Source of the DNA: Actinopolymorpha singaporensis
GTDB taxonomy: Bacteria; Actinomycetota; Actinomycetes; Propionibacteriales; Actinopolymorphaceae
Direction of reading: 5' to 3'
DNA: 64,000 nt
Assembly: GCF_900104745.1 (NCBI RefSeq)
Contig: NZ_LT629732.1
Span: forward strand, 744,001 to 808,000
Part shown: piece by piece, positions 25,419 through 29,105 of the stretch
Numbering within the stretch: position 1 is the stretch's first letter
How the letters are laid out: every line of letters begins with the position of its first letter
Translations under genes and position numbers: made by a program
Notes under the pieces: model-generated
Told to the model about the DNA's origin: nothing
What the model saw: only the letters and a program-made list of their open reading frames with translations
Database searches by the model: none

Positions 25419-26708
25419 TCAGCCGAACAGCCGGTCGAGCTCTGCCTGGGTGGTCTTCTCCGCCTTCTTCGCCTCCGCGGCGGGGTCGGCGCCCTTCTTG
25501 ATGATGTTGGTCAGCATGTCGCCGAACGCCGAGCCCATCTTCGGTGTCCAGGCGGGGTTGTCGGTGAAGCCGTTGTCGGCGGCGAGCTTCACCGCCTCCG
25601 CGGCCGGGCCCGTCTGCAGCTTCTTCGCCTTCGCCGCAAGGCTCTTTCGCGGCGGGATGTGGAAGCCGTAGCTCAGGCACCAGTCCTCCTGGAAGTCCGT
25701 CTTGTCGATCCACAGCCAGCGGACGAACTTCTTGGCGGCCTCGACGTTCTTGCTCTTGGCCGAGACGAACTGCGTCCAGCCGCCGGAGTAGACCGCGTCC
25801 TTGCCCTGCGCGTCCAGCTTCGGAAACGCCATCACGCCCACGTCGTCGCCGAACTTCTTCATGATCGCGGGCATCGCCCACAGGCCGATCCACTGCATGG
25901 CCGCGAGCTCGTTGATGAACGCGCCCGGGTCGGTCCACTCGGTGGGCGCGCCGAGCAATGTGGACTTGCTCGCGTACAGCTCGTGCAGTTTGGAGTACGC
26001 CTTGAGGGCACGCTCGCCGGTGAAGTTCGGCTTGTGGTCCTCGGTGAGGTAGCTGCCGCCTGAGGAGTACAACGCGGGGCCGCCCATGGCCAGGCCGCCG
26101 TCGTTTCCGGCGTACAGGCCCTTCATGTTCTTGTTGGTGAGGGCCTTCGCTGCGGTGATGAGCTCGTCGATCGTCGTCGGCGGCTTGAGTCCGGCCTTGT
26201 CCAGCAGGCTCTTGCGGTAGTAGATGAGCTGCGGGTCGTCGATCATCCGGATGCCGTAGAGCTTGCCGTCGACGGTGTTGGTGGTGATGTCGTTGGCGTT
26301 GAAGTCGTCCTTGACGTCGCTGATGATGTCGTCGAGGGGCACGACCTGCTTGCTCTGCACCATGGCGATGTTGAGCTGGCTCTCGAAGACGTCCGGGCCC
26401 TTGTCCGACAGCAGGCCCGAAGCCAGCTTCGACGCATAGTCACCGGGTGTCCACTGCACGTTGACAGCGGCCTTGTCGTACGCCTTGGCGTACTTCAGGG
26501 CGGCTTCCTTCGTGCCGGCCTCGCCGTACTGGTGGTACCACTGTGACAACACGGTGTTGCTCCCACCGCCGCCGCCACCGCCCCCACTCGCCGGGCGCCC
26601 GGTGTTGCCGCCGCAGGCCGCGGCGAACGCGCCGAGGGCTGCCAGCACACCTGTGCGGCGCAGGAAGGTACGTCGGCTCCAAGCGCCGGCCGGCTGTGTC
26701 GGGGTCAT
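25419..26708 (-). CDS. Sugar ABC transporter substrate-binding lipoprotein
   Basis: Extracellular family 1 solute-binding protein of 429 residues. The signal sequence has a twin-arginine pair (SRRTFLRR, R12-R13) and a lipobox ending FAAAC (C32), so export through Tat followed by lipidation is likely. The mature part has the family signature GGAWTQFVSAKSKN-type segment (GGWTQFVSAKSKNVEAAKKF) and KAYSKLHELYASK. I start at ATG 26708, preceded by GGAGGTG, rather than an in-frame codon 30 nt upstream. Head of the importer operon. Ligand unknown; no glycosidase or LacI regulator is adjacent. Confidence 0.93.
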   Translation of the reverse strand: MTPTQPAGAWSRRTFLRRTGVLAALGAFAAACGGNTGRPASGGGGGGGGSNTVLSQWYHQYGEAGTKEAALKYAKAYDKAAVNVQWTPGDYASKLASGLLSDKGPDVFESQLNIAMVQSKQVVPLDDIISDVKDDFNANDITTNTVDGKLYGIRMIDDPQLIYYRKSLLDKAGLKPPTTIDELITAAKALTNKNMKGLYAGNDGGLAMGGPALYSSGGSYLTEDHKPNFTGERALKAYSKLHELYASKSTLLGAPTEWTDPGAFINELAAMQWIGLWAMPAIMKKFGDDVGVMAFPKLDAQGKDAVYSGGWTQFVSAKSKNVEAAKKFVRWLWIDKTDFQEDWCLSYGFHIPPRKSLAAKAKKLQTGPAAEAVKLAADNGFTDNPAWTPKMGSAFGDMLTNIIKKGADPAAEAKKAEKTTQAELDRLFG

Positions 26709-27542: not shown

Positions 27543-28484
27543 TTAGTCGTGCACCGGGCTCTCGTGCTCGCGGTGGGTGGCCGACTCGATCTGGAACGTC
27601 GAGTGCTCCACGTCGAAGTGCCCGGCCAGGCAGGTGCACAGCTCGTCCAGCACCCGCCCGGTGTGGCCGCCGGCCATCGTCGCCTCGTCCACGACCACGT
27701 GCGCGGACAGGACGGGCAGGCCGGAGGTGATCGTCCAGGCGTGCAGGTCGTGGACGTCGACCACGCCGGGCACGTGCGCGATGTGGTGGCGTACGGCCTC
27801 GATGTCCACACCCTTGGGCACGGCCTCCAGCAGTACCTCGATCGCCTCCCGCAACAGCCCCCACGCGCGGGGCAGGATCATCAGGGCGACCAGCCCGGAC
27901 GCCACCGCGTCCGCGCGCTGCCAGCCGGTGAGCGCGATGACGAGTGCCGCGACCACCACCGCGACCGACCCGAGCAGGTCGCCGAGGACCTCCAGGTAGG
28001 CGCCGCGGAGGTTGAGGGAGTCCGACTGCGCCCGGTGGAGCAGCAGCAGGGACGCGGTGTTGGCGGCCAGGCCGACGAGCGCGACCACCAGCATCAGGCC
28101 CGACCTGACCTCGGGCGGCTCGGACAGGCGATGCACCGCCTCGTACAGGATGTAGAGCGCGAGCCCGAAGAGGATCACCGCGTTGGCCGCGGCGGCCAGA
28201 ATCTCCGCGCGCTGCCAGCCGAACGTACGCCGTCTGGTCGGTGCGCGCTGGGCGAGCGTCACCGCCACCAGGGAGAGGACGATGCCGGCGGAATCGGCCG
28301 CCATGTGGCCGGCGTCGGCGAGCAGCGCCAGCGAGCCGGACGCGATCGCGCCGACGACCTGCACCACCAGTACGGACGCGGTGAACAGGAGGACGAGCAT
28401 CAGCCGGCGCCGGTGCCCGCCCGTTGCGGTTCCCCGCGCCGCCGCGTGACCGTGTCCATGTCCGTGACCGTGTCCGCTGGCCAT
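27543..28484 (-). CDS. Cation diffusion facilitator (CzcD/ZitB-like metal efflux)
   Basis: Proton-driven exporter of Zn(II) or related divalent metals; 313 residues. A His-rich start (alternating Gly-His) is followed by six membrane segments with the transport-site motifs HMAADSAGIVLS (TM2) and YLEVLGDLLGSVAV (TM5), then a cytosolic dimerisation domain with HDLHAWTI. The His plus Asp of TM2 and the Glu/Asp of TM5 that form the metal site are present. The ATG overlaps the stop of the ArsR gene by one base, so exporter and sensor form one autoregulated operon. Upstream sequence in the same frame is shadow of the regulator gene. Confidence 0.93.
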   Translation of the reverse strand: MASGHGHGHGHGHAAARGTATGGHRRRLMLVLLFTASVLVVQVVGAIASGSLALLADAGHMAADSAGIVLSLVAVTLAQRAPTRRRTFGWQRAEILAAAANAVILFGLALYILYEAVHRLSEPPEVRSGLMLVVALVGLAANTASLLLLHRAQSDSLNLRGAYLEVLGDLLGSVAVVVAALVIALTGWQRADAVASGLVALMILPRAWGLLREAIEVLLEAVPKGVDIEAVRHHIAHVPGVVDVHDLHAWTITSGLPVLSAHVVVDEATMAGGHTGRVLDELCTCLAGHFDVEHSTFQIESATHREHESPVHD

Positions 28485-29059
28485 CAGCCGGCTCCCTCCC
28501 CGTGCGGACGCCGGCGGTCCGGGCGAGGCGAGCGAGGTGGGCGGCGGTGCGCCCGAACCGGTCCGGACTCCTGGGTGCGCGGCGGCTCGTGTCCGCTGGC
28601 GGGAAGGCTTTCGTGCGGGCGGGCCGCGCGAGCGAACGCGGGCGCCTGCTCGTCGGCGTGGTCGCGTACGTCGAGGATCTCGCGGACGCCGGACTCGGCG
28701 CAGCCGGCCTGGCCGGCCCCCTCGTTGACGACGGCGAGGAACTCCACCAGGGCGTGCGCGAGGTGCGGACTGGCGAGGTCGTAGCGGACCTGCCGGCCCT
28801 CCGGCGTGGCCGACACCAGGCCGGAGCCGCGCAGGAAGGTCAGGTGGTTGGAGACGTTCGGCCTGGTCAGGTCGAGGGTGTCGGCGAGCTGGGCCGGGTA
28901 GGCGGGTCCGGCGACCATGGCGAGCAGGATCCGGCAGCGGGTGGGATCGGCGATCGCCCGGCCGAGCCGGGACATCGCCTCCACGTCCGCCGGCCCGGCA
29001 GCCGGGCGCGGGGCCTCGGAGGTACCCGGCGGGCGGGACTCGGGTGGCTGGGTGAACAC
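28484..29059 (-). CDS. ArsR/SmtB family metal-responsive repressor (CmtR-like)
   Basis: A 191-residue winged-helix repressor. The core (residues about 25-110) closely matches mycobacterial CmtR: LGRAIADPTRCRILLAMV, LADTLDLTRPNVSNHL and GRQVRYDLASPHLAHAL. In CmtR the Cd/Pb site uses two cysteines in the recognition-helix segment and one in the C-terminal tail. Here that segment reads HLTFLRGSGLV, so both helix cysteines are replaced (Phe and Ser), while a tail Cys in QAGCAES remains along with His/Glu residues. Its metal may therefore differ. A long basic, disordered C-terminus is added. The GTG start sits 6 nt after a -10 element (leaderless); a later Met at residue 29 is the alternative. Confidence 0.85.
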   Translation of the reverse strand: MFTQPPESRPPGTSEAPRPAAGPADVEAMSRLGRAIADPTRCRILLAMVAGPAYPAQLADTLDLTRPNVSNHLTFLRGSGLVSATPEGRQVRYDLASPHLAHALVEFLAVVNEGAGQAGCAESGVREILDVRDHADEQAPAFARAARPHESLPASGHEPPRTQESGPVRAHRRPPRSPRPDRRRPHGEGAG

Positions 29060-29093
29060 GGCCCCACGATACAGCGGACGCTGAATTAAGCAA
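29059..29093 (-). promoter_or_regulatory. Leaderless promoter of the ArsR-CDF operon
   Basis: Minus strand: TTGCTT (29093-29088), 16-nt spacer, TATCGT (29071-29066), then 6 nt to the GTG start at 29059. Confidence 0.6.
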
Positions 29094-29105
29094 GCGCTGT
29101 ATCGT
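29066..29105. promoter_or_regulatory. ArsR-type operator (perfect inverted repeat)
   Basis: ACGATACAGCG (29066-29076) and CGCTGTATCGT (29095-29105) are perfect 11-bp inverted arms separated by 18 nt. One arm contains the -10 hexamer of the operon and the spacer contains the -35, so bound repressor would block RNA polymerase directly. Confidence 0.75.

Follow-up and report, generated by a model that had tools for sequence, protein, structure and literature searches.

What does a CmtR-type regulator respond to once the cysteines of its recognition helix have been replaced? The question is raised by a two-gene locus of Actinopolymorpha singaporensis, within a stretch of 64,000 nucleotides that was analysed as a whole (called the window below), in which an ArsR/SmtB regulator with Phe and Ser at two CmtR cysteine positions precedes a CDF cation exporter.

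Layout of the regulator and exporter genes

29059-28484, minus strand: ArsR/SmtB regulator, 191 aa, GTG start, HTH_5 46.4 bits
28484-27543, minus strand: CDF cation exporter, 313 aa, ATG start, Cation_efflux 149 bits

The regulator TGA and the exporter ATG have one base in common (TGATG, position 28484). Both this junction and, upstream of the regulator, the end of the same SDR gene were found in 5/5 full-length Actinopolymorpha copies. The original prediction had placed the exporter under the control of the regulator; homology and shared sites back a coupled pair, and translational coupling from the regulator to the CDF gene is probable. A gene-order search matched 96 of 293 genomes, and sequences were read only for those matches that received loci. 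A separate pair was seen in an Actinomycetota MAG (L026:2977-4238), where a CmtR-type regulator with the CxxxC motif and without the tail Cys accompanies a CDF that is ~49% identical, with two 12/12 matches to the operator consensus given below lying upstream; CmtR-CDF pairing therefore occurs elsewhere.

Descent of the regulator from the CmtR lineage

The regulator passed the ArsR/SmtB models PF01022 (46.4 bits, cut-off 22) and NF033788 (70.7 bits, cut-off 55), and scored 132.7 bits with the CmtR equivalog NF047906, under its cut-off of 150. Its best solved relative by sequence was CmtR (2jsc, E 4e-29). CmtR, SmtB, and CzrA were the best Foldseek matches of the regulator model, with 2jsc first by E-value and CzrA chains giving higher TM-scores. 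Alignment, tree, and structure work used 32 of 41 CmtR-type proteins. In the resulting tree of 32 core domains, which was midpoint rooted, contains no M. tuberculosis CmtR, and has 14 of its 29 inner branches under 80 support, the five full-length genus copies formed one clade (support 100/99) that sits inside a 26-row branch of CmtR-type proteins keeping the cysteines (97/100). Because 2jsc leads both by sequence and by Foldseek E-value and the genus clade falls among CmtR-type proteins, the regulator is, on sequence grounds, of the CmtR lineage by descent, yet not CmtR by definition. The CmtR scaffold of the original prediction is upheld by the 2jsc match and the tree placement alike. A further ArsR-type regulator of the same genome (L006:1387-2091) belongs to another lineage and has the His-rich C-terminus HRHSGYRHSG.

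Set beside CmtR itself (Rv1994c, the Cd/Pb sensor of Mycobacterium tuberculosis, 2jsc), the regulator has a like recognition helix apart from the cysteines and keeps the Cys24 and Cys102 positions, but Cys57 and Cys61 are replaced by Phe75 and Ser79, and a C-terminal extension of ~70 residues sets it apart. The gene neighbours also differ: according to the available part of PMC13043812, the CmtR gene is followed by pacL2-ctpG, whereas a CDF gene follows here.

Stepwise loss of the recognition-helix cysteines in Actinopolymorpha

28934..28936, minus strand: codon of Cys42, CmtR Cys24 position, near the start of helix 2, retained
28835..28837, minus strand: codon TTC of Phe75, CmtR Cys57 position by alignment to 2jsc
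28823..28825, minus strand: codon TCC of Ser79, CmtR Cys61 position by alignment to 2jsc
28700..28702, minus strand: codon of Cys120, CmtR Cys102 position, just after helix 5

That the helix cysteines have become Phe and Ser, as had been claimed, was borne out by the 2jsc alignment and the codons; the accompanying statement that only the tail cysteine remains was wrong, as Cys42 persists besides Cys120. Two of the three cysteines that we take to be the Cd/Pb ligands of CmtR are missing, and the CmtR metal site can therefore not be intact.

We compared these positions across 40 aligned relatives. Cys stands at the Cys57 position in 36 (Phe in the other 4), at the Cys61 position in 37 (Ser in the other 3), and at the Cys102 position in 38, while at the Cys24 position Cys occurs in 10 and Ser in 26. 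This census leaves aside the shortened copy L014, L018 (which reads C...C), L019 (protein identical to L010), L028, and the distant ArsR loci L003-L008; L037 and L038 were dropped as identical to L036, and start codons were picked mechanically. Both helix cysteines are retained in the 36 relatives outside the orthologue group. Within Actinopolymorpha, four species read F...S (the window, L009, L010, and L011) and one F...C (L012), and the shortened copy L014, outside the 40-relative set, reads Y...C. The four F...S copies use the codons TTC/TCC at these positions, L012 uses TTC/TGC, and L014 uses TAC/TGT, so that each helix substitution is one base away from a Cys codon. Cys42 and Cys120 are both present in 5/5 full-length genus copies. 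Among the sequences read, loss of the helix cysteines is thus confined to Actinopolymorpha and stepwise, and by parsimony position 57 was probably lost before position 61. A search of 394 class genomes for the F/Y...S/C helix motif, with a pattern that admitted only TTY/TAY and TCY/TGY codons in an exact N-H-L...R-G context, returned the source genome alone, in a sample that does not include the genus sisters. For mycobacterial CmtR, six conserved cysteines (4, 24, 35, 57, 61, and 102) are given in the accessible part of PMC7863910.

The shortened copy L014 (L014:1603-1809, Actinopolymorpha genome G001) is a tail-less Y...C regulator frame of 68 residues, truncated at its N-terminus and followed by the same CDF. 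No 16-mer within L014:1201-1905 matched the operator consensus at more than 8/12, and this regulator may be a remnant.

Two predicted abutting operators over a probable leaderless-type promoter

29066..29105, no strand assigned: 40-bp imperfect palindrome, 80% complementary over 20-nt arms, outer 11-bp arms perfect
29101-29086, minus strand: predicted operator O1, TACAGC-GCTT-GCTTAA, abutting O2
29085-29070, minus strand: predicted operator O2, TTCAGC-GTCC-GCTGTA, 3' arm running into the -10
29093-29088, minus strand: weak -35 candidate TTGCTT, 16 nt from TATCGT, between the repeat arms
29071-29066, minus strand: -10 candidate TATCGT, 6 nt before the GTG

The region upstream of the regulator contains a perfect 11-bp inverted repeat (29066-29076 and 29095-29105, 18-nt spacer), which had been read as one operator embracing the -35 and -10 of a promoter that starts at the GTG codon. 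Perfect 11-bp repeats with spacers of 0-30 nt had 31 placements in the window (overlapping placements counted apart) versus 2, 7, 0, 2, and 6 placements when five sequences were simulated with a first-order Markov model; since the window holds so many, the repeat alone is unremarkable, and it becomes notable by its place and its homologues. In the three F...S sisters its arms pair at 7, 6, and 6 of 11, so perfection is a property of the window copy.

The homologues point to a different unit. The best match to the consensus TWCAGY-N4-RCTGWA reached at least 10/12 in 40 of 41 CmtR-type upstream regions (the exception being L027), which include several close relatives and are thus not independent, compared with 3% of 4000 random 100-bp stretches from the same loci, a null that includes some true sites. 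In 37/41 regions a site of at least 9/12 has its 5' end 26-29 nt ahead of the start codon, and 13/41 have a second site 16-19 bp further upstream. O1 matches the consensus at 11/12 in all four F...S species (arms pairing at 4, 5, 4, and 4 of 6), and O2 at 12/12 in the window and its three sisters (arms pairing at 5/6 and 4/6, respectively). The F...C species has a single site, GTACAGC-TATG-GCTGTAC, and no tandem. The 11-bp repeat corresponds better to the outer arms of a pair of putative, abutting, imperfect 16-bp operators, because the outermost arms in two neighbouring palindromes will by nature look like an inverted repeat. Against this two-site reading, no more than 4-5/6 positions pair within O1 and within O2, and between-species similarity is about alike in the outer arms (8-9/11) and the inner 18 bases (14-15/18). 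A single 11-bp operator was not preferred, given the pairing of 6-7/11 in the sisters and the fit of two 16-bp sites to the homologues, which is not proof. CmtR reportedly binds multiple operator sites cooperatively, to go by the title of Chauhan 2009, and the two sites here resemble that arrangement. In the recognition helix, R66, S70, and H72 are invariant and N68 and N71 nearly so among the 32 aligned proteins; on the strength of these residues and of the operator class in 40/41 upstream regions, DNA recognition appears to have been kept.

In 40/41 upstream regions, compared with 8/2050 random positions, a TANNNT lies 5-9 nt ahead of the start codon, at a spacing of 6 nt in 22, 7 nt in 17, and 9 nt in 1, the exception being L043; a sigma-70 consensus scan at TTGCTT/TATCGT returned 0 promoters. 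This pattern supports a leaderless layout, with the operator 3' arm inside the -10, in the genes examined. Such overlap of an operator with the -10 of a leaderless-type promoter appears general among the CmtR-type genes examined and is in that sense ordinary. Of the simple-repression design first proposed, an operator over the promoter stands by homology and shared sites, as two 16-bp sites and not as one; the weak -35 candidate does lie between the arms of the repeat, but the -10 candidate TATCGT falls within one arm; and a leaderless start at the GTG is likely from the TANNNT spacing, as a general layout and not one special to this gene.

A search of the genome for a wider regulon with the single-site pattern TWCAGYNNNNGCTGWA gave 2 places (3 strand matches) versus 3 for the backward control, no more than expected by chance; the other of the two places, at 1001901, falls within a 193-aa ORF that is acetyltransferase-like by eye.

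A CmtR-type paralogue with the same operator class

The same genome encodes a CxxxC CmtR-type paralogue (L002:1453-1797), which adjoins a CDF-type protein with a Cys-rich C-terminus, DACGCGPGCDCCG. The two regulators are alike in operator class, tandem layout, CDF-type neighbour, and the recognition-helix core R.N.SNHL. The paralogue differs in having both helix cysteines, extra C-terminal Cys, and no long tail, and in carrying Ser at the Cys24 position where the window regulator has Cys42.

This kinship bears on the idea that the window regulator has become a metal-blind repressor, in which induction would be lost, the paralogue would sense metal, and the two proteins would compete at both promoters. 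The 7 hits of the tandem pattern, spread over 4 of the 8 family genomes, all stand immediately in front of one or other of these CmtR-type genes (backward control, 0), and the common helix core fits competition; the pattern, however, was written after the sites had been seen, and the paralogue has a CDF-type gene of its own next to it. Metal blindness would also leave the invariant Cys120 and the conserved tail unexplained, and we regard it as rather unlikely.

The exporter and its likely substrate

The exporter passed the NCBIfam CDF superfamily model (277 bits, cut-off 82.35), stayed below the cut-off of the ZitB model NF002923 (240.5 bits, cut-off 408), and scored 114.9 bits with the DmeF model. 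Among solved structures it comes closest to zinc transporters (ZnT8, E 1e-37), and the Ca/Mn transporter SLC30A10 ranks fourth. The N-terminus is His-rich and TM2 carries HxxxD. In the alignment, the TM5 motif is ExxxD where ZnT8 has HxxxD. The genome holds three further Cation_efflux matches besides this exporter. Judged by these relatives, the exporter is probably ZnT/ZitB-like, with zinc as the favoured substrate. The original prediction had proposed Zn, Co, or Ni, bound at another site, as the probable metal sensed by the regulator; zinc as the inducer metal would be favoured only through the kind of exporter.

The likeness to ZitB also brings in Zur as the main control of the exporter, with the ArsR protein in a minor role, as S. 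coelicolor zitB is activated by Zur according to the available part of PMC5472717. No Zur-box-like site was found near the promoter: a scan of the 64-kb window with a pattern that differs from the published box gave two 3-mismatch matches, at 25499 and 36971, which is chance level. Control through Zur is highly improbable here. A functional parallel is KmtR (Rv0827c), an ArsR-family repressor with a putative CDF exporter as its target, which is Ni/Co-responsive (PMC7055735, in the part available) and belongs to another ArsR lineage than the window regulator.

Selection on the core and the C-terminal tail

28544..28633, minus strand: C-terminal motif, residues 143-172, with His148, His156, and His169; low-confidence in the model, probably disordered

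Among the four F...S species, dN/dS, which for each species pair rests on small counts, was 0.03-0.26 in the core (residues 25-112) and 0.04-0.22 in residues 143-172, compared with 0.23-0.69 in the N-terminus (1-24), 0.80-1.60 in the linker (113-142), where Cys120 is nevertheless kept, and 0.42-1.21 in residues 173-191. Between the F...C species and the others the tail aligns loosely, with dN/dS of 0.36-0.49 where computable, and His148 is replaced by Thr. A search for the tail motif in 8 family genomes gave strong matches only to the four F...S orthologues, the next best (E 0.014) being unconvincing.

The AlphaFold2 model has a winged-helix core of helices 23-37, 39-49, 55-62, and 66-79, two strands, and helix 98-118, with block means of 94-98 for residues 21-110, 72 for 111-120, and 47-67 beyond (51-67 in the 143-172 motif). 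Helix 5 contains His99 and His102; the rest of the alpha5 Asp/His set that we take to be the ligands of CzrA/SmtB/NmtR-type sensors was not evident by eye, nor were the presumed metal ligands of KmtR recognised. Inspection of sequence and model identified no complete metal site in the regulator.

These patterns speak to a process of erosion, in which the sensor would be slowly declining, with a weak leftover site at Cys120 and mostly constitutive repression. Phe or Tyr stands for Cys57 in 6/6 genus copies and Ser for Cys61 in four, and the G001 copy is shortened, tail-less, and without an operator-like site nearby. The four F...S species, on the other hand, have predicted operators and show purifying selection on both core and tail motif, and erosion is an unlikely account of them. 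Core purifying selection, the invariant Cys120, and the conserved tail motif argue that function has been kept: the pattern of substitution in the regulator gene of the F...S species is not that of simple decay, and some property of Cys120 and the tail appears to be retained.

A proposed mechanism and the nature of the inducer

The reading that we prefer, at just under even odds (about 0.48), takes the regulator for an autorepressor that descends from CmtR, also represses a zinc-type CDF, and has had its inducer site changed. Regulator dimers would bind the two abutting 16-bp operators, O2 covering the -10 and so blocking the promoter, and would thereby repress the regulator's own gene together with the translationally coupled exporter. 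With the recognition-helix cysteines lost in Actinopolymorpha, the inducer would no longer be sensed at the CmtR site, and an excess of Zn(II), or of a similar ion that the CDF exports, would release the repressor through a changed site made of Cys120 and oxygen or nitrogen ligands, possibly in the His-bearing C-terminal tail.

The zinc part is supported by the exporter's nearest solved relatives. It is weakened by the opposite action of Zn2+ on M. bovis CmtR, which, according to the available part of a review, is made to repress its own gene. The reading is further weakened by the lack of an evident complete metal site or alpha5 ligand set and the low confidence of the tail model, by Thr at the His148 position of the F...C species, and by the L014 species, which has a shortened regulator only and no operator-like site of at least 9/12 nearby.

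The two cysteines left to the regulator suggest another inducer. Cys42 and Cys120 could form a redox or reactive-sulphur switch, oxidation of which would release the regulator and thereby allow zinc liberated from thiols to be exported. Both cysteines persist throughout the full-length genus copies, in the structural elements used by BigR/SqrR, namely helix 2 and at or after helix 5. Relative to what we take to be Cys41 and Cys107 of SqrR, the register in helix 2 is shifted by roughly one turn of the helix, and the shift is larger in helix 5. The BigR model gave 34 bits, short of its cut-off of 155, the coupled gene is a metal exporter, and Cys42 is common to other CmtR-type proteins (10/40), so that it was not gained in Actinopolymorpha. 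BigR/SqrR differ from the regulator in sequence cluster and, in the available part of PMC10509353, in typical gene neighbours as well. The leftover pair may matter all the same, because the two cysteines of ArsR persulphide sensors lie in helix 2 and in helix 5 or its extension (PMC10509353 and PMC8960804, in the parts available) and M. bovis CmtR reportedly requires Cys24 to respond to H2O2 (PMC7863910, likewise in part). A thiol sensor is, on balance, decidedly unlikely. A published network of the ArsR superfamily excluded proteins >150 residues, as far as the available text of PMC10509353 goes, and a regulator of 191 residues would for that reason be missing from it.

Significance for ArsR-family sensors

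The new element at this locus is the loss of cysteines together with a common operator class and a conserved tail; the operator and the leaderless layout are ordinary. Our literature search found nothing on ArsR regulators in Actinopolymorpha, which is weak evidence of absence, as the search did not extend to most subscription papers. A bolder version of the changed-site autorepressor, doubtful as it stands, is that the inducer changed within one genus while the DNA code was kept, with sensing through the Cys42-Cys120 pair, the His-bearing tail, or both, so that two paralogues would share one operator code and answer to two signals.

ArsR-family sensors retain a single fold as their inducer sites change, and recent intermediates help to show how this comes about. 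One genus here holds a series of a CxxxC paralogue, FxxxC, and FxxxS with a common operator class, and the step at which the metal response was lost or changed is therefore testable in few proteins.
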